From: Ilumatobacteraceae bacterium
GTDB lineage: Bacteria; Actinomycetota; Acidimicrobiia; Acidimicrobiales; Ilumatobacteraceae
Assembly: GCA_021298435.1 (NCBI GenBank)
Contig: JAJTFJ010000016.1
Coordinates: 1-39,275 of the forward strand
Length of the DNA: 39,275 nucleotides
Direction of reading: 5' to 3'
The notes beneath the pieces are model-generated. The model was not told the origin of the DNA and did not search any database. It saw only the letters and a program-made list of their open reading frames with translations. Position numbers and translations under genes: made by a program. Of the stretch, positions 4,394-27,557 are shown piece after piece. The first letter of the stretch is position 1. The number at the start of each line of letters is the position of its first letter.

Positions 4394-5614
4394 CTAACTA
4401 GTAACACCCGACTTGTGAGCACTCACAGGTTGCGCGTGATAGATGCCGGTATGACCACTTGTTGCATACGCAGCAGCACACGCAAGCGCGAAAAATGTGA
4501 GGCCCTGCCCGCCGAACAGCTCGATGCCGATGATGGTGCACGCAAGTGGGGTATTCGTTGCCCCGGCTAGCACCGTGATGGAACCGATGATTGCGAACAC
4601 CACAACATTGGCTCCCATGATGTGTGCATAACTTGCGCCGGCCAATGCGCCAATCACAAACAGCGGAATGAACTCACCACCGACGAATCCTGAACCAATC
4701 GTGATGGAGGTCAACAGCAACTTGCTGCCCCATTGTCCTGCAACTGATCCATTCATCGCTTCAAGAGCGAGTGGAATAGAAAGTCCGGAGTAGTCGCGCC
4801 ATCCGAAAGAAAGAATGAGGATGGTGAGAAGAACACCGCCGATGACAGGACGTGCTGGGTACCACGCGACGTATTTCTTGAGAGTGTCCTTGATGAAATG
4901 TGTGAGATGCACAAAGAGCATTGCGATGAGGCCACCAATCACTCCGAACAAGATGACCTTCCATGCCATGGAAACTGACCATGCAACCTTTGGCATGACG
5001 GGATAGTGCGTGTGCGACACACCGAGTCCGCGCACCACTGCGTCTCCCACGAAACTTGCAACGAATGCTGGCACCAGCGCTTCGTAACGAACCCGGCCCA
5101 CACGTTGCACTTCTAAGGCGAAGACAGCACCAGCAACAGGTACTCCAAAGACAGATCCGAATCCGCCAGCAATTGCGGCGATCAACATGAGGGAGCGGTC
5201 TGCTGGGTTCAGACCCAACCTTTTGCTGATGGGGTCAGTCACACCCGCGGCTAATTGCAGAGCTGCGCCTTCACGACCAGTCGAACCACCAGCCACATGA
5301 GAGACGACGCTTGCACCAAAGATGAGCGGCGTGAGTCGGAGAGGAATCCATTCAGAGCGGGAATGGATTTGATCGATGATGAGATTGCTGCCGCGTTCGA
5401 GTCCGCGACCGAGGTAGTGATACGAACAACCAACAAGAAGTCCTGCAAGTGGCAATGTAAACACCAGCCAGTTGTTGCCCTCCCGCGTGTCGGTTGCCCA
5501 GTTCAGAGCCTCAATGAATGCAGCTGAAAGAAGCCCGGATAAAACTCCAATGAGAAATGCAAGAGCCACCCAGCGGGCGACATGCATCGCTCGACTGAGT
5601 GGCTCTTTGAACAT
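4394..5614 (-). CDS. CLC-family channel/antiporter, CLC-F (fluoride) type
   Basis: Multi-pass CLC protein (406 aa). The selectivity motif GSGIP of chloride transporters is replaced (GASVVSHVAGGSTGREGAALQ, 100-120). The gating glutamate is present as E115 in GREGA, followed by GSGFVGGEFIPLF (307-319). The C-terminal motif SGHTGIY (386-392) and ATNTPLACTIIGIELFGG (352-369) are features I associate with the fluoride/proton antiporter branch (CLC-F, eriC-F) rather than the E. coli ClcA branch. Fluoride export is therefore the likeliest role, but chloride cannot be excluded. The start lies 8 bp after the thiolase stop on the same strand, so the two genes probably share an mRNA. There is no space for a fluoride riboswitch directly upstream. 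Confidence 0.85.
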   Translation of the reverse strand: MFKEPLSRAMHVARWVALAFLIGVLSGLLSAAFIEALNWATDTREGNNWLVFTLPLAGLLVGCSYHYLGRGLERGSNLIIDQIHSRSEWIPLRLTPLIFGASVVSHVAGGSTGREGAALQLAAGVTDPISKRLGLNPADRSLMLIAAIAGGFGSVFGVPVAGAVFALEVQRVGRVRYEALVPAFVASFVGDAVVRGLGVSHTHYPVMPKVAWSVSMAWKVILFGVIGGLIAMLFVHLTHFIKDTLKKYVAWYPARPVIGGVLLTILILSFGWRDYSGLSIPLALEAMNGSVAGQWGSKLLLTSITIGSGFVGGEFIPLFVIGALAGASYAHIMGANVVVFAIIGSITVLAGATNTPLACTIIGIELFGGQGLTFFALACAAAYATSGHTGIYHAQPVSAHKSGVTS

Positions 5615-5622
5615 CTACAGAT

Positions 5623-6804
5623 TTAGAGTGCGCGCAAGATGATGGCGTCACCTTGTCCGCCACCGCCGCACAGTGCAGCTGCACCAACACCGCCGCCACG
5701 ACGACGAAGTTCGTGAAGGATGGTGAGTGCAAGACGGTTGCCGCTCATGCCGATGGGGTGACCCAAGGCAATTGCGCCACCGTTGACGTTCACGATTTCG
5801 TCAGTGATGCCGAGTTCCTTCATCGATGCAATGCCGACTGCAGCGAATGCCTCGTTCAATTCGAACAAGTCAACGTCGGATGTCTTCATGCCGGCACGGT
5901 CAAGTGCGCGCAAGATGGAACGGCTTGGCTGGTGCAACAACGAAGCGTTGTCTGGACCAGCAACCATGCCATACGAAAGAACTTCGCCCAATGGCTTCAC
6001 GCCGCGAGCTTCTGCTGCCTTCTTTGACATCATGACGACTGCTGAACCACCATCGGAAATCTGTGACGCGTTTGCTGCAGTGATGCTGCCGTTCTTGTCG
6101 AATGCTGGCTTCAAACCACCAAGTGATTCCATCGTGGTGTCTGCGCGAACGCCTTCGTCCACTGTGACCATCTTTGGATCACCCTTGCGTTGTGGAACAG
6201 CGACAGGAATGATTTCATCATTGAAGCGGCCAGCTTCGATAGCTGCTGCTGCACGAACGTTTGACTTCATCGCAGCTTCGTCTTGCTGATCACGTGTGAT
6301 ACTGCCAGCGACGTAGTTGTCGGTGCCGAGTCCCATGAGGACATTGTCGAATGAACACCAGAGACCGTCATGAACGATTGCGTCCTTCAACTCAGTGTTG
6401 CCGTAGCGGAAACCGCCACGTGCACCTTGTGCGAGGTACGGAGCATTCGTCATTGACTCCATGCCGCCAGCAATCACGATGTCGGCTTCGCCGGAAGCGA
6501 TCATCTGGTCAGCGAGATAGATCGAGTTCAAGCCGGACAAGCACACCTTGTTGACGTTGATGGAAGGAATGTTCATGGGGATGCCACCCTTGAACGCAGC
6601 TTGACGTGCAGGTACCTGTCCCTGGCCAGCCATGAGAACCTGGCCCATGATGACGTGCTCAACTTCTTCGGGCTTCACGCCGGCACGCTCAAGAGCTGCC
6701 TTGATTGCAAAACCACCGAGGTCTGCAGCACTAAATGAGGAAAGCGCACCACTCATCTTGCCGATGGGTGTACGTGCTCCTGCGACGATGTATGAACCGG
6801 CCAT
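5623..6804 (-). CDS. Acetyl-CoA acetyltransferase (thiolase)
   Basis: Biosynthetic-type thiolase (393 aa) that condenses two acetyl-CoA to acetoacetyl-CoA, or cleaves it. The nucleophile is C88 (NVNKVCLSG). The NEAFA motif, H349 in GGAIALGHPIG and C379 in CGGGGQG match the Zoogloea-type C89/H348/C378 triad in position. The frame opens at 6828, but ATG 6804 is preferred: it is preceded by GGAG (6810-6814 complement) at 5 nt and gives the usual MAGSYIVAGARTPIG start. It is divergent from ccr across 137 bp. Together with ccr and the 3-hydroxyacyl-CoA dehydrogenase at 26715 it can feed the ethylmalonyl-CoA pathway. Confidence 0.95.
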   Translation of the reverse strand: MAGSYIVAGARTPIGKMSGALSSFSAADLGGFAIKAALERAGVKPEEVEHVIMGQVLMAGQGQVPARQAAFKGGIPMNIPSINVNKVCLSGLNSIYLADQMIASGEADIVIAGGMESMTNAPYLAQGARGGFRYGNTELKDAIVHDGLWCSFDNVLMGLGTDNYVAGSITRDQQDEAAMKSNVRAAAAIEAGRFNDEIIPVAVPQRKGDPKMVTVDEGVRADTTMESLGGLKPAFDKNGSITAANASQISDGGSAVVMMSKKAAEARGVKPLGEVLSYGMVAGPDNASLLHQPSRSILRALDRAGMKTSDVDLFELNEAFAAVGIASMKELGITDEIVNVNGGAIALGHPIGMSGNRLALTILHELRRRGGGVGAAALCGGGGQGDAIILRAL

Positions 6805-6865
6805 ATATGCCTCCGAAATGTGGGGCACCCGAACTAGGTGCGAGGCTTTTTAGGTTAGGAGATGA

Positions 6866-6933
6866 TTCCCCCAAACTCGTTATCGCTAATTCCCCCACAC
6901 CCGATATCTCCAGTTCCCCCAAACTCGCTATCG
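6866..6933 (+). repeat. Three 24-bp-period direct repeats overlapping the ccr promoter
   Basis: The motif TTCCCCCA(A/C)ACTCG(T/C)TATCG begins at 6866, 6890 and 6914, an exact 24-bp period. Copies 1 and 3 match at 19 of 20 bases and copy 2 is degenerate (TTCCCCCACACCCGATATC). Copy 3 contains most of the ccr -10 box. The array lies between the divergent thiolase and ccr genes and is probably a set of regulator binding sites. Confidence 0.8.
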
Positions 6934-6934
6934 T
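6929..6934 (+). promoter_or_regulatory. ccr -10 box, leaderless start
   Basis: TATCGT lies exactly 7 nt before the ATG at 6942 and is part of the third 24-bp repeat. There is no Shine-Dalgarno. A bound regulator on this repeat would directly touch the -10 box. Confidence 0.5.
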
Positions 6935-6941
6935 CACTCGG

Positions 6942-8270
6942 ATGGAAAAGATCCTCCAAGCCATCCTGAATGGTGCATCGGGTGAAGAACTCGCCGCCAT
7001 TCCACTGCCCACCACCTACCGCGCGGCGATTGTCCGCAAGGAAGACGAGAAGATGTGGGAGGGAATTGCCAGTGCGGACAAGGATCCTCGCAAGAGCATC
7101 CATATCGCTGAAGTCCCCTTGCCAGAGTTGGCTCCTGACGAAGTCGTGGTTGCTGTGATGGCCTCCAGCATCAACTTCAACACAGTGTGGAGCAGCATTT
7201 TCGAGCCCATCAGTACTTTTGGTGCACTTGCCCGTCTCGGTCGTGAGAGCAAGTGGGCAAAGCGCCACGACCTCGACTACCACGTTCTTGGTTCAGACGC
7301 ATCTGGTGTTGTGCTTCGTACAGGTAGTGCTGTGCGCAACTGGAAGCCCGGCGACAAGATCACAGTTCATTGCAACCACGTTGATGATCAAGACCCTTCT
7401 TCACACAGCGACTCGATGATGGGCTCTAACCAGCGCATCTGGGGTTACGAGACAAACTTCGGTGGTCTCGCAGATCTTGCTGTTGTGAAGGCAAACCAGC
7501 TCATGCCAAAGCCTGCTCACCTCACATGGGAAGAAGCAGCTGTCAGCGCACTCTGTAACTCAACGAGTTACCGCATGCTCGTGTCAAAGAACGGCGCGAA
7601 CATGAAGCAAGGCGATGTCGTTCTCATCTGGGGCGCATCGGGTGGCATTGGCTCCTATGCATTGCAGTACGTCCTCAACGGTGGTGGAATCCCCGTCGCT
7701 GTTGTTTCTTCTGATGAAAAGGCTGCAATCCTTCGCGAGATGGGTTGCGAGCACATCATCAACCGCAAGACTGCGAACTATAAGTTCTGGAACGATGACA
7801 ACACGCACAACGAAAGTGAATGGCGTCGTCTTGGTGGTGACATTCGCGCACTTGTTGGCGAAGATCCGGACATCGTGTTCGAACACCCAGGCCGCAGCAC
7901 CTTTGCTGCATCAATGTTCGTGACGAAGAAGGGCGGCACCATCGTTACGTGTGCTGCAACCAGTGGCTTCATGATGGAGTTTGACAACCGTTACTTCTGG
8001 ATGCGTTTGAAGAAACTCGTTGGTTCACACTTTGCGAACTACAAAGAGTCATACGAAGCAAATCGTCTCATTGAAAAGGGAATGATTCATCCTGTGATGT
8101 CACAGGTGTTCAGCCTCGAACAGACTGGTGAAGCTTCGTACCAAGTGCATAACAACATGCACGAAGGAAAGCTTGGCGTTTTGTGTTTGGCACCTGAAGA
8201 AGGTCTTGGTGTTGACAACCATGAGCTTCGTGCCAAGGTTGCTGACAAGCTCACTTGGTTCCGTCGTTAA
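6942..8270 (+). CDS. ccrA: Crotonyl-CoA carboxylase/reductase
   Basis: Ccr (442 aa) reductively carboxylates crotonyl-CoA with NADPH and CO2 to (2S)-ethylmalonyl-CoA, the key step of the ethylmalonyl-CoA pathway. It also supplies extender units in Streptomyces. The sequence closely follows the Streptomyces enzyme throughout. It has the MDR nucleotide-binding motif IWGASGGIGSYA (229-240) and the CO2-pocket residues N80, E170 and H363. The pocket Phe known from the Kitasatospora enzyme is Tyr169 here. The frame opens at 6735, but ATG 6942 gives the family N-terminus (MEKILQAILNG) and fits the promoter spacing. Methylmalonyl-CoA epimerase follows after 40 bp. Confidence 0.96.
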   Translation: MEKILQAILNGASGEELAAIPLPTTYRAAIVRKEDEKMWEGIASADKDPRKSIHIAEVPLPELAPDEVVVAVMASSINFNTVWSSIFEPISTFGALARLGRESKWAKRHDLDYHVLGSDASGVVLRTGSAVRNWKPGDKITVHCNHVDDQDPSSHSDSMMGSNQRIWGYETNFGGLADLAVVKANQLMPKPAHLTWEEAAVSALCNSTSYRMLVSKNGANMKQGDVVLIWGASGGIGSYALQYVLNGGGIPVAVVSSDEKAAILREMGCEHIINRKTANYKFWNDDNTHNESEWRRLGGDIRALVGEDPDIVFEHPGRSTFAASMFVTKKGGTIVTCAATSGFMMEFDNRYFWMRLKKLVGSHFANYKESYEANRLIEKGMIHPVMSQVFSLEQTGEASYQVHNNMHEGKLGVLCLAPEEGLGVDNHELRAKVADKLTWFRR

Positions 8271-8310
8271 TCCATCATCTCGCTAATTCATCTCACAGAA
8301 AAGAGCCATC

Positions 8311-8712
8311 ATGCTTTTGACAGAAATTGATCACATTGCAATTGCCGTTCGCGATCTCGAAGCTGCAGTTGAGTACTACCAAAAGGCTTTCGGCGCCACC
8401 ATTGATCACCGCGAAGTCGTGGAGTCCGATGGTGTTGAAGAAGTGCTGATGAAGGTTGCTGAGAGCTACATCCAGTTGCTTACACCGACGAACCCTGATT
8501 CTCCTGTGGCGAAGGCCATTGAGAAGCGCGGTGAAGGTCTGCATCACATTGGGTACCGCGTGAACAATTGTGCTGAAGCGCTTGCATCAATGATTGCTGC
8601 CGGAGCAACACCGATTGACAAAGCTCCTCGCCCAGGTTCTCGTGGAACAACGGTTGCATTCATGCACCCCAAGGGCAGCTTCGGCACCCTCATCGAACTC
8701 GTTCAGGAATAA
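8311..8712 (+). CDS. Methylmalonyl-CoA/ethylmalonyl-CoA epimerase
   Basis: VOC-fold metalloenzyme (133 aa) that interconverts the 2R and 2S epimers of methylmalonyl-CoA and ethylmalonyl-CoA. Two beta-alpha-beta-beta-beta modules are visible. Likely metal ligands are H8 (ITEIDHIAIAV region), Q56 (YIQLLTP), H79 (GLHHIGYRV) and E130 (LIELVQE). It follows ccr by 40 bp, which fits its role of converting the Ccr product into the mutase substrate. There is no TANNNT box at the start, so it is probably read from the ccr mRNA. A hairpin follows the gene. Confidence 0.93.
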   Translation: MLLTEIDHIAIAVRDLEAAVEYYQKAFGATIDHREVVESDGVEEVLMKVAESYIQLLTPTNPDSPVAKAIEKRGEGLHHIGYRVNNCAEALASMIAAGATPIDKAPRPGSRGTTVAFMHPKGSFGTLIELVQE

Positions 8713-9446: not shown

Positions 9447-10184
9447 ATGTCCGAACTAACAGGCATGGTTGCCATCGTCACCGGTTCATCAAGCGGTATC
9501 GGAGAACGCGTTGCGCAACGCCTTTCCGAACTTGGTGCGAAAGTTGTTGTGAACTCGGCTAGCAGCGTGGAAGCAGGTCAGAAAGTGGCCGATGCACTTC
9601 CCGGTGAATCGATGTATGTGCAAGCCGACATCAGTGACAAAGCACAGTGCGAAAACTTGGTTGCACAAACGGTGAAGAAGTTCGGTGGAGTTGACTTGCT
9701 TGTGAACAACGCTGGTTGGACAACACTTGTGCCGCACGGTGATCTTGATTCATTGACGGAAGAGATCTTTCGTAAGACATTTGATGTCAATGTGTTCGGA
9801 ACATGGAATCTCACGATGGCTGCAATGCCGTACTTGCGTGAATCAACTGACGGACAAGTCGTCACCATCACATCAGTTGCTGGTGTGCGCCCGATGGGTT
9901 CTTCGATTGCGTACTCAATGTCAAAGGCTGCACTGAATCAGATGACGCACTTGTTGGCGAAGAGCCACGGCCCAGTGCGATTCAATGCAGTGGCACCTGG
10001 CCTCGTTGAAACACCATGGACAAAGGATTGGGCAAATCAGCACGCAGGTGTTGCAGCGATAAATCCGATTAAGCGTTCAGCAACACCTGATGATTGTGCA
10101 GAAGCAACTCTCGCTCTTGTGCGCGGCAAGTACATCACCGGACAAGTTCTTGTTGTCGATGGTGGCCTGACGCAAGTCAGCTAA
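9447..10184 (+). CDS. SDR-family oxidoreductase
   Basis: Classical short-chain dehydrogenase/reductase (245 aa). It has the cofactor motif TGSSSGIG near the N-terminus, NNAG (LLVNNAGWT), the catalytic Ser of ITSVAG, YSMSK and the C-terminal ITGQVLVVDGG typical of FabG-like enzymes. The substrate is not determined. The open frame runs back to 9321 inside the prepilin peptidase gene. ATG 9447 is preferred because it has AGGGGG at 9435-9440 and gives the usual SDR N-terminus. Confidence 0.9.
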   Translation: MSELTGMVAIVTGSSSGIGERVAQRLSELGAKVVVNSASSVEAGQKVADALPGESMYVQADISDKAQCENLVAQTVKKFGGVDLLVNNAGWTTLVPHGDLDSLTEEIFRKTFDVNVFGTWNLTMAAMPYLRESTDGQVVTITSVAGVRPMGSSIAYSMSKAALNQMTHLLAKSHGPVRFNAVAPGLVETPWTKDWANQHAGVAAINPIKRSATPDDCAEATLALVRGKYITGQVLVVDGGLTQVS

Positions 10185-10197
10185 TTGCTGAACTGGT

Positions 10198-11154
10198 CTA
10201 CCGACCACGAAATGGTGTGATGCCATTCGCTGGCACAACACCTAAACGTCCACGTTGGTAATCGTCGAATGCTTGTTGCAATTCGGCACGTGTGTTCATG
10301 ACGAACGGTCCGTACTGTTCGACGGGTTCACCAATGGCTTCACCGCCCAAGAGAATCACATCGAGTGCTTCATGTGCGGATGCTTCAAGCGTGATGGTGT
10401 CACCGGCGCCATAGACAACTGTTTGACCAACGCCCATTGCGATGTGTTCTGAGCCAGCAAAACCTGAACCCTTGAGGCCGTGTGCAAGTGCGTTGAAGTG
10501 CGGATTCCATGGCAACACCATGCGCGCACCGGGGGAGATAGTTGCATGTGCAATCACAATCGGCGTGTGTGTAGAACCAGGTCCGGTGACGCCACCAAGA
10601 TCACCAGCGATGAGACGAACAAGAGTGCCTGCATCGGGTGTGGTGAAGAGTTTCACCAAATGTGAGTCAAGGTTCTGATACGCGGGTGGAATCATCTTGT
10701 CTTTTGCAGGAAGATTCACCCAGATCTGCAGACCATGGAACATGCCGCCCTGAATCACCATGCTCTCGGGTGGTGTTTCAATGTGCAGAACTCCACCACC
10801 TGCAGTCATCCATTGCGTGTCGCCATCAGTGATGACGCCGCCTCCACCGTGAGAGTCCTGGTGGATGAATGTGCCGTCCATGATGTACGTGACAGTTTCG
10901 AAACCGCGGTGTGGGTGCCAGTCGGTACCACGAGGTTCATACGGGGCGTAATCAACGGCGCCCATCTGGTCCATCATGATGAACGGATCAATGACGTTTT
11001 TAGGCAAACCAGCAAATGCACGACGCACGGGGAAGCCTTCACCCTCAAGACCTTGCGGGGCAGTGGTGAGTGAGCGAATCGGCCGGTCGACAGCTTCGAG
11101 GCCAGGGGCGTCGTAACGAGGAAGGGTCAATGTGTCGGCGGTGACTGCAGGCAT
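10198..11154 (-). CDS. Pirin-family protein
   Basis: Bicupin pirin (318 aa). The iron ligands of pirins are conserved: HPHRGFETVTYIMDG supplies two His, and the GGGVLHIETP segment supplies His and Glu. Bacterial pirins include quercetin 2,3-dioxygenases and regulators of pyruvate dehydrogenase, so the exact role is open. The frame opens at 11238, but ATG 11154 is chosen because AGGAG lies 7 nt upstream. An 18-bp inverted repeat (11172-11189) overlaps its likely -10 box. It is divergent from the exonuclease and convergent with the SDR (13 bp apart). Confidence 0.92.
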   Translation of the reverse strand: MPAVTADTLTLPRYDAPGLEAVDRPIRSLTTAPQGLEGEGFPVRRAFAGLPKNVIDPFIMMDQMGAVDYAPYEPRGTDWHPHRGFETVTYIMDGTFIHQDSHGGGGVITDGDTQWMTAGGGVLHIETPPESMVIQGGMFHGLQIWVNLPAKDKMIPPAYQNLDSHLVKLFTTPDAGTLVRLIAGDLGGVTGPGSTHTPIVIAHATISPGARMVLPWNPHFNALAHGLKGSGFAGSEHIAMGVGQTVVYGAGDTITLEASAHEALDVILLGGEAIGEPVEQYGPFVMNTRAELQQAFDDYQRGRLGVVPANGITPFRGR

Positions 11155-11171
11155 TGTGTGGCTCCTAAAAG

Positions 11172-11191
11172 TAGTTGCGAGGTCAACTATA
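11172..11191 (-). promoter_or_regulatory. Operator-like palindrome over the pirin -10 box
   Basis: TAGTTG (11172-11177), 6-bp spacer, CAACTA (11184-11189): a perfect 6-6-6 inverted repeat. On the minus strand TATAGT (complement of 11186-11191) is a good -10 box overlapping one half-site, followed by AGGAG and ATG. This is the arrangement of a repressor operator. The regulator family is not determined. Confidence 0.5.
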
Positions 11192-14360: not shown

Positions 14361-14364
14361 TTGC

Positions 14365-14394
14365 GACCCGGCTTCGGCCGGGTCGTTTTTGTTT
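14365..14394 (+). terminator. Rho-independent terminator of the tRNA-Ser/tadA unit
   Basis: GACCCGGC (14365-14372), UUCG loop, GCCGGGTC (14377-14384), then GTTTTTGTTT. It has a perfect 8-bp GC-rich stem with a stable tetraloop and a T-tract. It reaches the stop codon of the convergent hydrolase gene. Confidence 0.93.
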
Positions 14395-15931: not shown

Positions 15932-17803
15932 GTGCGAATGGGTCCTCATATGCTTCTCCCCGGTGATGCCGATGCTGTGAAGGGTGCACGAATGAAACGT
16001 GCTTCTTTGCGTCGGGCTTGGCAGTTCTCATCTCCATACAAATGGCAGATCATCGGCTTCCTTTTGGCCATTGTTGCCTCAGCCTTGGCCGCGCTTGCGC
16101 CACCACTTTTGTTCCGCGCGATTCTCGACACGGCAATTCCCGAGGGAAACCGTGGTCTGATCACGACTTTGGCGGTCATCTTGGTGACTGCAGCGATAGC
16201 CGATGCGGGGCTGGCAATTATTCAGCGCTGGTTGAGTTCCACAATTGGTGAAGGCCTTATCTATGACCTTCGTGTCGCGCTATTCGACAAAGTGCAACGA
16301 ATGCCCATTGCATTCTTTACTCGCACACAAACGGGCGCACTAATCAGCCGCCTCAATAGTGATGTAGTTGGCGCACAGACTGCGGTGACATCAACCTTGG
16401 GAAGTGTCGTCTCTAACGTTGTAGTACTCATCACCACCTTGGCTGCAATGTTCGTTCTCGAATGGCGATTGACATTGCTGTCCTTGGTCGTCCTTCCTTT
16501 GTTCATCGCACCAGCAAAACGCATGGGCCTGAAGTTGGGTGGCATTGCGCGCGAGCAGATGGAACTCAATGCGCAGATGAATACGCAAATGAGCGAGCGT
16601 TTCAACGTTGCGGGGGCAATGATTGTCAAACTCTTCGGTCGACGTGAACGAGAAGTCAATACTTTTGCAACGAGCGCATCAGGAGTGCGTGACACCGGTA
16701 TCAAAGCTGCGTTGTATGGGCGAGTGTTCTTCGTTGCTCTTGGTCTTGTCGGTGCGATGGGTGCTGCAGCCATCTATGGCATCGGTGCACAACTTGTTGT
16801 CTCCAAATCAATCACTCCAGGAACGTTGGTTGCATTAGCTGCACTTGTCACTCGCATCTATCAACCTCTCACTGGCCTTACTAATGCGCGTGTAGAAGTC
16901 ATGACGGCGTTTGTTTCATTTGATCGCGTGTTTGAAGTGTTGGATGCACCGGTGTCCATCGTTGATCGCCCTGGAGCAATTGATTTGGTGGAACCTCGTG
17001 GCGAGATCGAGTTCGACAATGTTGTCTTTCGGTATCCGCCCGCATCAGATTCATCCGTTGCATCGCTGGAAATGCCGGGAGGAACATCAGGTGATCCTGA
17101 TGTCGACGTATTGAAGGGCATCAGCCTTCATGTCGCGGCAGGTGAGACTGTCGCAGTTGTTGGTTCTAGCGGTTCTGGCAAGAGCACGATGGCGACATTG
17201 GTGCCTCGCTTGTACGACGTCACAACAGGTGCTGTGCGAATTGACGGACATGATGTTCGTGACCTCACGGGAGACTCACTTCATGATGCCATTGGTGTGG
17301 TGACACAAGATCCGCATCTCTTTCACGAAACCATCAAGGCCAATTTGTTGTACGCACGACCTGATGCAACAGATGAAGAAGTGATTGCTGCCTGTGAGGC
17401 AGCTCGTATTCACTCAACAATTGCCGCATTGCCTGATGGCTATGAAACCTTTGTTGGCGAGCGTGGCTATCGCCTCTCCGGCGGAGAAAAGCAGCGCGTG
17501 GCCATTGCTCGTATGTTGTTGAAGAATCCGGCAATCATGATTCTGGACGAAGCCACCAGCCATCTTGACAATGAGAATGAATCATTGGTGCAAGAAGCTC
17601 TTGAAGCCGCGTTACATGGCAGAACTGCCCTGGTCATTGCACACCGATTGTCAACAATCCGCGATGCTGACCGCATTGTCGTTGTTGATAATGGCCGCAT
17701 TGTGGAACAAGGAACCCACGATGCCTTGATGGAGCTTGATGGCGCCTATGCCTCTCAGGTTCGTGCCGGCGGTTCTTTCGGTGCTGCCACACCAACTCTC
17801 TAG
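15932..17803 (+). CDS. ABC exporter, fused membrane and ATPase domains
   Basis: Half-size ABC exporter (623 aa from GTG 15932). The N-terminal half is a six-helix transmembrane domain; the C-terminal half is the nucleotide-binding domain. The ATPase has Walker A VVGSSGSGKST, Q-loop VTQDPHLFHETI, signature LSGGEKQRVAIARM, Walker B IMILDEATSHLD and H-loop VIAHRLSTI, so it should be active as a homodimer. The substrate (lipid or drug) cannot be told. The start is ambiguous: 15932 matches promoter spacing, and the short leader before KRASLRRAWQF resembles homologues. The stop TAG doubles as the start of the xseA -10 box. Confidence 0.9.
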   Translation: MRMGPHMLLPGDADAVKGARMKRASLRRAWQFSSPYKWQIIGFLLAIVASALAALAPPLLFRAILDTAIPEGNRGLITTLAVILVTAAIADAGLAIIQRWLSSTIGEGLIYDLRVALFDKVQRMPIAFFTRTQTGALISRLNSDVVGAQTAVTSTLGSVVSNVVVLITTLAAMFVLEWRLTLLSLVVLPLFIAPAKRMGLKLGGIAREQMELNAQMNTQMSERFNVAGAMIVKLFGRREREVNTFATSASGVRDTGIKAALYGRVFFVALGLVGAMGAAAIYGIGAQLVVSKSITPGTLVALAALVTRIYQPLTGLTNARVEVMTAFVSFDRVFEVLDAPVSIVDRPGAIDLVEPRGEIEFDNVVFRYPPASDSSVASLEMPGGTSGDPDVDVLKGISLHVAAGETVAVVGSSGSGKSTMATLVPRLYDVTTGAVRIDGHDVRDLTGDSLHDAIGVVTQDPHLFHETIKANLLYARPDATDEEVIAACEAARIHSTIAALPDGYETFVGERGYRLSGGEKQRVAIARMLLKNPAIMILDEATSHLDNENESLVQEALEAALHGRTALVIAHRLSTIRDADRIVVVDNGRIVEQGTHDALMELDGAYASQVRAGGSFGAATPTL

Positions 17804-24118: not shown

Positions 24119-25996
24119 TTATGCGCGGTACGCGACAGCGAGCTCTGCAACTTCACGCATGATGCGTGAGATGTCGAAGTCCTTCGGTGTGTACACGGCG
24201 GCCACACCTTGGCTCATGAGCAATTCGCGGTCTTCTTCGGGAATGATTCCACCCACGATGACGGGGGCGACATCGGGATCTTCGTCTCGAGCGCTAGCAA
24301 CAATCTGCTCAGGCGTCAGACGGATACCGCTATACACAACTTCCATTCCTGCATCACGCGCAGCAACAGCAATCTGCTCTGCACCATTGGAGTGACCATC
24401 AAGACCTGGCTTTGCAACGAGGAAACGAGGTGGGCCACCGGCAATTGACTTCACAAACTCAGCAACTTCGGCGAGTGCGTGAGTACGACGACCAACTGCA
24501 GCGCCAACACCAGTGGGTGCACGGAACTCGCCAAACACTTCGCGGAGCACAGCTGACCATTCGCCAGTTGTGCCACCGGCTTCGGCCAACTCAATCGATG
24601 CTTCCATGATGTTCTCGTCGGATTCAGCGGCAGCACGTACGCGGGCAAGTGCTGCTTGCACTCGTGCGTTGTCACGGGATGAACGCCATGCTGCGACATC
24701 GGCAATCATTTCGTTTTCTACAGCAGGGTCAACAACAAGAATGTTTCCAGGCACAGCAAGCGGGCTGTCTTCTGACTCGGTGTATGAGTTCACACCAACA
24801 ACAACTTGTTCACCGCCTTCGATGCGACGAGTACGTGTTGCCATCGAACGCACTAAGCGACCCTTAAGTTCATCAACAGAATTGAATGCACCACCGAGTG
24901 ACAGCACTTCTTCAAACTCTGCCCATGCAGCATCGCGAAGCTCCGCAGTGCGTGCTTCGATGACCTTTGATCCATCAAAGATGTCTTCGTACTCAAGAAG
25001 ATCTGATTCGAATGCAAGCACTTGCTGCATACGCAATGACCACTGCTGGTCCCACGGACGAGGCAAACCAAGAGCTTCGTTCCATGCAGGCAACTGCACG
25101 CTACGTGCACGAGCATTCTTCGAAAGTGTGACTGCGAGCATTTCAAGAACGATGCGCTGAATATTGTTTTCTGGCTGCGCCTCGGTGAGACCAAGCGAGT
25201 TCACCTGCACGCCATAACGGAAGCGACGAGCCTTTGCGTCGGTGACGTTGTAGCGCTCGCGACCAATACGATCCCACAACTCGGTGAACGCACGCATCTT
25301 GCACACTTCCTCAATAAAGCGAATGCCGGCATTGACGAAGAATGAGATAGAACCAAAGACTTGGTCGAACTGTTCATCATCGACCTGACCGCTTGCGCGA
25401 ACAGCGTCGAGAATGTCAACAGCGGTGGCAAGTGAGTATGCAATCTCTTGCACTGGTGTCGCACCTGCTTCTTGCAAGTGATACGAGCACACGTTCATCG
25501 GGTTCCACTTCGGTGCGTTCTGTGCACACCATGCGACCATGTCGACGATGAGTCGCTTGGATGGTGCTGGCGGGAAGATGTACGTACCGCGTGAGAGATA
25601 TTCCTTCACGATGTCGTTCTGCGTGGTGCCACGAAGTTCTTGTGATGTGGTGCCTTGCTCGCGTGCATTGGCTACGTAGAGAGCAAGCATCCATGCAGCA
25701 GTGGCATTGATGGTCATCGACGTGTTCATCTTGCCCGGAGGAATGGAGTCGAGCAGTGTGCGCATGTGGCCGAGGTGGGCGACAGGAACGCCAACCTTGC
25801 CGACTTCTCCGTGCGCCAATACATGGTCGGGGTCGTATCCGGTCTGCGTCGGCAAGTCGAATGCAATGGAGAGACCGGTCTGGCCTTTGGCCAAGTTGGT
25901 GCGGTAGAGCTGGTTAGAAGCCGCGGCGGTGGAATGGCCCGAATAGGTGCGCATTAACCATGGGTCGTCACGGCGGGGGGTGCTTGCGTCAGTCAC
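24119..25996 (-). CDS. ecm: Ethylmalonyl-CoA mutase, shortened in the B12-binding domain
   Basis: Adenosylcobalamin mutase (625 aa from GTG 25996) that rearranges (2R)-ethylmalonyl-CoA to methylsuccinyl-CoA. The N-terminal barrel matches the MeaA/Ecm type: DDPWLMRTYSGHSTA, GQTGLSIAFDLPTQTGYDPDH, NTSMTINATAAWMLALY, YLSRGTYIFPPAPSKRL. The C-terminal B12 domain keeps the axial ligand His535 (LDGHSNG, 532-538) and VGGIIP, but D533 to GG583 spans 51 residues against about 79 in the usual DxHxxG-x41-SxL-x26-28-GG layout, and the SxL segment is absent. The frame runs back to 26158 inside aat, but GTG 25996 gives the family N-terminus. It lies 43 bp downstream of aat. Confidence 0.9.
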   Translation of the reverse strand: MTDASTPRRDDPWLMRTYSGHSTAAASNQLYRTNLAKGQTGLSIAFDLPTQTGYDPDHVLAHGEVGKVGVPVAHLGHMRTLLDSIPPGKMNTSMTINATAAWMLALYVANAREQGTTSQELRGTTQNDIVKEYLSRGTYIFPPAPSKRLIVDMVAWCAQNAPKWNPMNVCSYHLQEAGATPVQEIAYSLATAVDILDAVRASGQVDDEQFDQVFGSISFFVNAGIRFIEEVCKMRAFTELWDRIGRERYNVTDAKARRFRYGVQVNSLGLTEAQPENNIQRIVLEMLAVTLSKNARARSVQLPAWNEALGLPRPWDQQWSLRMQQVLAFESDLLEYEDIFDGSKVIEARTAELRDAAWAEFEEVLSLGGAFNSVDELKGRLVRSMATRTRRIEGGEQVVVGVNSYTESEDSPLAVPGNILVVDPAVENEMIADVAAWRSSRDNARVQAALARVRAAAESDENIMEASIELAEAGGTTGEWSAVLREVFGEFRAPTGVGAAVGRRTHALAEVAEFVKSIAGGPPRFLVAKPGLDGHSNGAEQIAVAARDAGMEVVYSGIRLTPEQIVASARDEDPDVAPVIVGGIIPEEDRELLMSQGVAAVYTPKDFDISRIMREVAELAVAYRA

Positions 25997-26039
25997 GGGT
26001 TCAGTATGGCAACGGGTGGGGGCGTTCCCCACAGCAGGG

Positions 26040-26696
26040 CTATGGCTGGATGGCTGAGGCCAGCAATTGCAGGTATTTCTCGCGCGGAATTGCAATACAG
26101 CCGAGGCTCTCCAGGTGGTCGGTGCGCCACTGAGTATCGAGCAATTCCATGCCGTCAAGAGTCATCAGTTGTACAAGATGCATCAGGGCCACTTTCGATG
26201 CATCGGTCTCGATATGGAACATGGATTCACCTGCGAAAAACCTGTTGATGCGCACTCCGTAGAGGCCACCCACCAAGTCACCTGCTTCATTCCAGACTTC
26301 GACACTGTGTGCGTGGCTTTCTTTGTGCAGGTCGGTGTAGGCGTCGATGAAGGTCTGGTTGATCCAGTTGCCATCAGTGCGCATGGAGCCACATAACGTC
26401 ATCACTTCCGTGAACGCTTGGTTAACCGTGCAGGTGAACTTCTTGGCACTTTGTTGCATGGACCGAGTGATGCGAAGTCCATCAAGTGGGATCACTCCGC
26501 GATCAACAGGCGACCACCACGCAAGTATTTGCTCACTTGAGAAGATGCGCGCTTTGACAAACATCGGGAACATGCCGTGCGCGTAGGCATACAACAAAGT
26601 ATCTATTTCTAAATCTGCACCAGCATGAACGATGTCATCATCGGGCCAGAGATCAGGCGCAGGGAATGGCCATCGGCATTCTGTCGGCGGCTTCAT
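26040..26696 (-). CDS. aat: Leucyl/phenylalanyl-tRNA-protein transferase
   Basis: Aat (218 aa) attaches Leu or Phe to N-terminal Lys/Arg of proteins, creating N-degrons for ClpS/ClpAP. Family landmarks are FPAPDLWPDDDIVHAGADLEIDTLLYAYAHGMFPMF, ILAWWSPVDRGVIPLDGLRITRSM, NWINQTFIDAYTDLHKESHAHSVEVW and VGGLYGVRINRFFAGESMFH. It lies 18 bp after the 3-hydroxyacyl-CoA dehydrogenase gene on the same strand. Confidence 0.95.
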   Translation of the reverse strand: MKPPTECRWPFPAPDLWPDDDIVHAGADLEIDTLLYAYAHGMFPMFVKARIFSSEQILAWWSPVDRGVIPLDGLRITRSMQQSAKKFTCTVNQAFTEVMTLCGSMRTDGNWINQTFIDAYTDLHKESHAHSVEVWNEAGDLVGGLYGVRINRFFAGESMFHIETDASKVALMHLVQLMTLDGMELLDTQWRTDHLESLGCIAIPREKYLQLLASAIQP

Positions 26697-26714: not shown

Positions 26715-27557
26715 TCAGTACGTATAGAAACCTGAACCGGACTTGCGACCGAGCTTGCCAGCGGCAACCAAACGACGAAGTGTTGGAACGGCTGCGTAAT
26801 TCGCATCTGCGAACTCTGCATACAACGCATCAAGGATGGCGAGTGATGTATCGAGACCGACAAGATCGAGCAATGCGAATGGGCCCATTGGGAAGTTGCA
26901 ACCGCCCTTCATTGCGGTGTCGATGTCTTCCATTGTTGCGGTGCCTGTTTCCCAAATGCGAATTGCATTGTTGAGGTAGGGGAAGAGCAATGCGTTCACG
27001 ATGAAGCCTGCGCGGTCCTTCACCTGCACGCCATTCTTTCCGCACTGTGCAGTGAATGCGTTTGCAGCATCGATGGTTTCATCTGATGCAGTTATTGGAC
27101 GAACAACTTCGACCAATGGCATTGCTGTTGCAGGGTTGAAGAAGTGAATGCCGCACACCTTGTCGGGACGACCGGTGGCCATTGCCATTTCAACAACAGG
27201 AAGCGTGCTGGTGTTGGTCGCAAGAATTGCACTTGGCTTGACAGCCTTGTCGAGTTCAGCGAAGAGAGCTTTCTTGACGTCGAGGTCTTCGACAACTGAT
27301 TCGATCACGAGGTCACAATCAGCAAGATCTGCGATCTTGTCGGTGGCTGACAAACGGCCAAGGATCGCAGCCTTGTCGTCTGCTGTGATCTTCTCGCGGG
27401 ACAACTGCTTGTCGAGACCCTTTTCGATGGAGGTGATCATTGCCTGTGCTGATGCAGCACTGCGTGAGCGAACGATGACTGTGTAGCCAGCCTTCGCAGC
27501 AACTTCTGCCAAGCCTGAACCCATGATGCCTGAGCCGCAAATACCGATTGTCTTCAT
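26715..27557 (-). CDS. 3-hydroxybutyryl-CoA dehydrogenase
   Basis: 3-hydroxyacyl-CoA dehydrogenase (280 aa) of the short, stand-alone butyryl type. The Rossmann motif is GSGIMGSG (8-15), followed by the signature HFFNPATAMPLVEVV with the catalytic His, and KDRAGFIVNALLFPYLNNAI. It interconverts acetoacetyl-CoA and 3-hydroxybutyryl-CoA, upstream of crotonyl-CoA. GGGAGG stands 6 nt before the ATG. It heads the minus-strand series dehydrogenase-aat-ecm-peroxidase-DUF1761, which links it to the mutase two genes downstream. Confidence 0.94.
   Translation of the reverse strand: MKTIGICGSGIMGSGLAEVAAKAGYTVIVRSRSAASAQAMITSIEKGLDKQLSREKITADDKAAILGRLSATDKIADLADCDLVIESVVEDLDVKKALFAELDKAVKPSAILATNTSTLPVVEMAMATGRPDKVCGIHFFNPATAMPLVEVVRPITASDETIDAANAFTAQCGKNGVQVKDRAGFIVNALLFPYLNNAIRIWETGTATMEDIDTAMKGGCNFPMGPFALLDLVGLDTSLAILDALYAEFADANYAAVPTLRRLVAAGKLGRKSGSGFYTY

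Follow-up and report, generated by a model that had tools for sequence, protein, structure and literature searches.

An ethylmalonyl-CoA mutase gene without the SxL segment of its B12-binding domain, and similar losses elsewhere in the same draft genome: a probable sequence or assembly error

The window, i.e. the whole 39,275 nt stretch analysed, is contig C9 of draft genome G000, which comprises 1,534,142 bases in 56 contigs and is 76.5% complete. It encodes an ethylmalonyl-CoA mutase (Ecm) with a shortened B12-binding domain. Also present are genes for crotonyl-CoA carboxylase/reductase (ccr), an epimerase, a thiolase and a 3-hydroxybutyryl-CoA dehydrogenase, and therefore the context of the ethylmalonyl-CoA pathway (Table 1); the thiolase, ccr and epimerase genes adjoin one another at 5623-8712, approximately 16 kb from ecm. 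The ecm reading frame is open without interruption from 24119 to 26158 on the reverse strand, where a TTG marks its upstream limit. The GTG at 25996 is likely to be the start, because the frames of several same-genus orthologs, 653-655 aa from stop to stop, are closed by a stop codon shortly before that position; counted from this GTG, the product is 625 aa long. For the open frame at 24119-26158, Pfam assigns residues 62-543 to MM_CoA_mutase, while the B12-binding match covers only positions 2-54 of the 121 in the profile (24269-24427).

The best matches among solved structures are methylmalonyl-CoA mutases (1req_A, 6oxc_A and 2xij), which have the same barrel and C-terminal B12 domain, and which are approximately 32-35% identical to the window's Ecm over the structural match. 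This contrasts with an identity of 64-99% to 69 aligned orthologs, and methylmalonyl-CoA mutases act on a different substrate class. The name Ecm is given to this clade partly on the basis of ccr in the window; the two other genes of the pathway that were considered, ccr and the epimerase, were both found. The neighbourhood of ecm is the same in the nearest relative, G014. The closest named relatives are metagenome-assembled genomes (MAGs), titled Actinomycetota, Acidimicrobiaceae or Ilumatobacteraceae, several of which come from lakes or reservoirs by our reading of their isolate names.

Table 1. Features of the window, and sites at which the window's assembly lacks at least 25 nt relative to sister genomes. 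Coordinates without a handle are those of the window.
Feature	Location	Strand	Loss	Basis or remarks
Acetyl-CoA C-acyltransferase (thiolase)	5623..6828	-		TIGR01930, above cut-off
Crotonyl-CoA carboxylase/reductase (ccr), intact, same pathway as ecm	6735..8270	+		TIGR01751, above cut-off
Methylmalonyl-CoA (ethylmalonyl-CoA) epimerase	8311..8712	+		TIGR03081, above cut-off
Ethylmalonyl-CoA mutase (ecm/meaA), shortened B12-binding domain	24119..25996	-		Pfam and NCBIfam matches; relatives
Remaining B12-binding domain: beta1, DGHSNG, alpha1, beta2, alpha2, then directly beta4 (GG), alpha4, beta5, alpha5	24122..24427	-		Pfam; AlphaFold2
Junction in ecm	24268..24269	.	81 nt (27 codons)	DNA alignment with G014, G023 and G003; three relatives keep the bases
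3-Hydroxybutyryl-CoA dehydrogenase	26715..27557	-		NF005875, above cut-off
LysR regulator (HTH)	L161 (G000:C37) near 4850		73 nt, frame-shifting	two relatives keep the bases
RsmE	L161 (G000:C37) near 17551		56 nt, frame-shifting	
RF3	L176 (G000:C17) near 2959		35 nt, frame-shifting	
UvrA	L202 (G000:C47) near 9528		88 nt, frame-shifting	
GH2 beta-galactosidase	L176:9935		117 nt	diverged flanks
ABC ATPase	L190:5408		35+38 nt, frame-shifting	diverged flanks
PDZ/radical-SAM/DUF512 protein	L178 (G000:C5) near 17698		195 nt, in frame	includes the CxxxCxxC iron-sulfur motif
SDR			45 nt	
Kynureninase-like enzyme			126 nt	

The B12 domain is shorter by exactly 27 residues, which span beta3, the SxL loop and alpha3. 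Their sequence is VGLSILSGSHMQLVPEVVRQLRAEGVD in the three nearest relatives, where the orthologs read ...ARDEDPDV-VGLSILSGSHMQLVPEVVRQLRAEGVD-APVIVGG..., and the window reads ...ARDEDPDVAPVIVGG... instead. The motif of the axial histidine, DxHxxG, is kept (D533-G-H535-S-N-G538, numbered from the GTG at 25996), as is the GG loop (G582-G583), with 49 residues separating the latter from D533 against 76 or 77 in orthologs. In the orthologs, the Ser of SxL lies 47 residues after the Asp of DxHxxG, and GG in most of them at +76 or +77. No SxL segment is found approximately 41 residues after DxHxxG in the window, nor anywhere in its translation after the DGH motif. It lies within the missing columns in all 69 aligned orthologs, only the window being without it, such that chance is not a concern, and in SILSGxH every position but x is the same in each of the 69; the aligned 1req_A also has an SxL segment. 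The first-pass annotation, made from the window alone, was thus right that the SxL segment is absent, and that it was lost cleanly, in frame and with the remainder of the protein intact. Its estimate of 84 nt is replaced by 81 nt from the alignment, and the interval in which it placed the deletion (24262-24285) narrows to the junction in Table 1.

In an AlphaFold2 model of an intact ortholog, the missing stretch (residues 577-603) comprises strand 576-580 minus its first residue and the whole of helix 584-599, i.e. one beta-alpha unit. The corresponding model of the trimmed Ecm has a four-stranded domain (beta1, beta2, beta4 and beta5) as opposed to the five strands of the AdoCbl-binding type, and a structure search with it returns a list headed by ordinary B12 mutases. 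One reading of this model is that the mutase works with its B12 domain cut down to four strands. Strand beta4 would then occupy the position vacated by beta3, and the tail of the cofactor would be held without the SxL loop, or a different corrinoid form would be used. The open frame and the retention of the remainder of the protein are consistent with this, as is a mean pLDDT of approximately 81 over residues 521-625; the same block of the intact ortholog scores higher under the same protocol, at approximately 88, and the trimmed model, having been built from aligned intact relatives, is silent on stability. A comparable case is Mmp10, which has a B12-binding domain of four strands with neither DXHXXG nor SXL (PMC8828468). 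The likeness would consist of a B12-binding domain without SxL that, in the model of this Ecm, has four strands. Unlike the window's Ecm, Mmp10 is a radical SAM methyltransferase lacking DXHXXG, with a domain that is only marginally Rossmann-like (PMC8828468). A literature search, which was not exhaustive, found no description of an Ecm lacking SxL. Were the trimmed enzyme to work, B12 mutases could evidently do without their SxL loop, an unexpected result.

The distribution of the gap was studied using the window's own 114-residue domain as the query. Among 221 genomes of the family, 219 gave matches, but the only end-to-end match among those listed was in the window's own genome, with the other listed Ecm matches ending at query residue 67-69. 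A search of 395 genomes of the class, drawn evenly, gave matches at E 1e-20 or better in 157; again, of the matches listed, none but that of the window's genome covered the whole query, the others ending at query residue 66-89. Seventeen of the listed class matches continued a little beyond the junction, as far as query residue 76-89, and on retrieval every one had SxL at +47 and GG at +76. A trimmed domain shared across the lineage is therefore rejected, because a true sharer would rank first in these rank-ordered listings, and the deletion that the first-pass annotation proposed to look for in related genomes was not seen among the matches listed from either set. The Ecm/MeaA of an Acidimicrobiia MAG, UFOp-RE-4nov15-221 (WLHL01000029.1, L033), is 99% identical to that of the window outside the gap and possesses the 27 residues, SxL loop included, that the window's protein is without. 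The ecm frame of another relative, at L085 (JAJYGZ010000031.1) 29-1960, has one stop codon across the match.

Selection on ecm was examined by counting the changes private to each sequence, with G003 as the outgroup and only positions at which the other three sequences agree being used. The window's gene has 16 private synonymous changes and no nonsynonymous ones, while G014 has 21 and 1, and G023 has 30 and 2, respectively. This implies that the gene has been fully constrained up to, or nearly to, the present. The rest of the B12 domain has 18 silent differences from G014 and not one amino acid difference, hence no compensating substitution was found there. An old pseudogene would have drifted, and an enzyme remodelled for function after losing a central strand should show compensating change somewhere. 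Neither ecm nor the other genes with losses that were scored show signs of relaxed selection after the loss. The absence of compensating changes, the invariance of SILSGxH among orthologs and the similar losses in unrelated genes of the same assembly all argue against a working trimmed mutase, which we consider very improbable; that a natural Ecm, working or using another corrinoid, would have beta4 in place of the beta3-SxL-alpha3 unit appears more improbable still. Of the three options the first-pass annotation had offered, a damaged enzyme is possible, while the different corrinoid mode finds no support.

Nor does the remaining option, a compensating subunit. A free B12-binding protein with DGH and SxL intact is encoded at G000:C10:54788, a kind of subunit that the annotation had proposed to look for, and could be imagined to serve the Ecm barrel. 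Its obvious partner, by our inference, is a large subunit of a mutase that has no B12 domain of its own (G000:C39:139290), such that the two probably form an ordinary separate mutase rather than a patch for Ecm. Match counts also indicate that additional B12-domain matches are common in genomes whose Ecm is intact, and the Ecm of the window retains most of its own B12 domain, which would be in the way. A separate subunit is consequently regarded as extremely improbable. A second, intact ecm, for which the annotation had likewise proposed a search, was not found in the draft, which is 76.5% complete.

The junction itself has 1 nt of homology, allowing the break to slide by 1 nt. The gap ends in G014 read GATGTCGTCGG on the left and GTTGATGCCCCCG on the right, and GATGTC occurs at one end only in the nearest relatives, G014 and G023, whose identity to the window in aligned blocks is 92-95% and 91-92%, respectively. 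Recombination between GATGTC repeats, proposed in the first-pass annotation, is thus rejected, there being no GATGTC pair in G014; furthermore, the window has PDVAPV, not the PDAPV that a join through the shared GATG would produce.

The level of similar losses elsewhere in the assembly was then assessed by comparison with G014 or G023, first for the window and 14 other stretches (249,910 aligned own bases) and subsequently for 10 more (140,965). Across the 390,875 own bases, and within colinear alignments, the window's assembly lacks sequence at 10 sites with gaps of at least 25 nt and the relatives at one, a split with a two-sided sign-test probability of 0.012, the 25 nt threshold having been chosen after the first results had been seen. 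The single site at which a relative lacks bases is a 27 nt gap in G023, which is also the only event in a 38,589-base comparison of G023 with G014. The gap in ecm is therefore accompanied by further private losses in constrained genes of the same assembly (Table 1), nine in the sampled stretches, which an annotation made from the window alone could not see. The median pN/pS is 0.059 for eight affected genes and 0.055 for 328 others; UvrA and the beta-galactosidase were left out of this scoring, and the RsmE entry, read on the wrong strand and containing two stops, should be disregarded. For the eight sites other than ecm and LysR, the comparison involved a single relative, and which side changed is judged mainly from the interruption of conserved domains. 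The GH2 and ABC ATPase sites, with their diverged flanks, may represent ordinary divergence; at the former, no open frame of 100 aa is present in the window's genome, although 117 is a multiple of three. Taken alone, the loss from the PDZ/radical-SAM/DUF512 protein would pass for another striking variant.

The losses range from 35 to 195 nt, with a junction slide of 0-2 nt at the seven sites of the first batch and 0-1 nt at those of the second. In the relatives, a short, imperfect GGCAGC-like repeat stands at either end of the stretch missing from the LysR gene, which makes a repeat-mediated loss possible in that case. Half of the 10 lengths (73, 56, 35, 35+38 and 88 nt) would shift the frame; the other half are multiples of three, where one in three would be expected, and this leans slightly toward natural losses. 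The direction of the imbalance depends upon size. Gaps of 10-24 nt run the opposite way, with the relatives lacking bases at nine places and the window's assembly at none, while at block breaks of 0.4-3.7 kb, which fall outside the 10:1 count, the relative has extra DNA at five and the window's genome at four. Symmetric divergence was rejected as the cause of the gaps on the 10:1 split at 25 nt or more, yet the shorter gaps (0:9) and the block breaks (5:4) do not share that split. Hence the peculiarity of this draft lies in long losses within genes rather than in indels as a whole.

Together, the gap is known from one assembly, the rest of ecm is under full constraint and more such losses are present in the same assembly. 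The missing 81 nt are thus probably an error of the draft genome arising in sequencing, library preparation or assembly. The bases would have dropped out during library construction or contig joining, as one of a set of clean losses scattered over the assembly, and the real ecm of the cell would be intact, encoding an ordinary Ecm that serves the ethylmalonyl-CoA pathway. The excess of longer losses (10 against 1), the normal constraint on the genes that are hit and the invariance of the deleted columns in all 69 orthologs favour such an error, whereas the reversal among the 10-24 nt gaps (0 against 9) does not. As regards mechanism, de Bruijn assembly needs reads crossing the junction, so that a simple collapse of the graph on an overlap of 0-2 nt is a poor candidate.

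The alternative is that the deletion is real and very recent, the sequenced strain or cell having a freshly broken ecm that arose within a burst of short deletions in the cell line; the protein would then fold badly or fail to bind adenosylcobalamin, leaving the ethylmalonyl-CoA pathway off or leaky. Contigs are normally built from reads, such that molecules spanning the junction probably existed, and a slide of 0-2 nt resembles the outcome of end-joining or replication errors. The lack of private nonsynonymous changes is also compatible with a loss confined to the latest part of the branch, estimated at no more than approximately 6% of it, given the 16 synonymous changes observed and approximately 3.2 nonsynonymous changes expected per synonymous one without constraint. 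However, around 10 gene-damaging losses per 391 kb, including those in RF3, RsmE and UvrA, would be hard to sustain in a living lineage, and no relaxed constraint is evident in the eight genes scored, which do not include UvrA and the beta-galactosidase. The reversal of the 10-24 nt class makes an artefact somewhat less likely and a fresh lesion somewhat more so, but the latter still seems rather unlikely, and we infer that the losses were not present in the living cell.

Whether artefact or fresh lesion, the trimmed mutase is therefore uninformative with regard to corrinoid chemistry. When a conserved motif drops out cleanly and in frame from one draft genome, the result can mimic a new enzyme variant, and a sister comparison over a few hundred kilobases is able to distinguish a property of the gene from one of the assembly. 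Claims about gene content drawn from this draft should be made with care as regards the broken genes for UvrA, RF3, the LysR regulator and RsmE.

The 10-24 nt sequences that are extra in the window's genome are found at 26526-26546 in the window and in L156, L164, L170 and L194; one example, of approximately 18 nt, lies inside a leucyl/phenylalanyl-tRNA transferase gene. Elsewhere, the window's genome is longer by 0.4-1.1 kb than G014 at L198 (G000:C39) 6340-7460 and at L172 (G000:C39) 5384-5771 and 10800-11180, and than G023 at L156 12211-13081. A further variable spot adjoins tRNA-Ser(CGA) at 14361-14394, where the window has almost nothing, G014 has approximately 1.8 kb encoding what look like an HxlR-like regulator and an MFS-like transporter, and G003 has several kilobases of other DNA.
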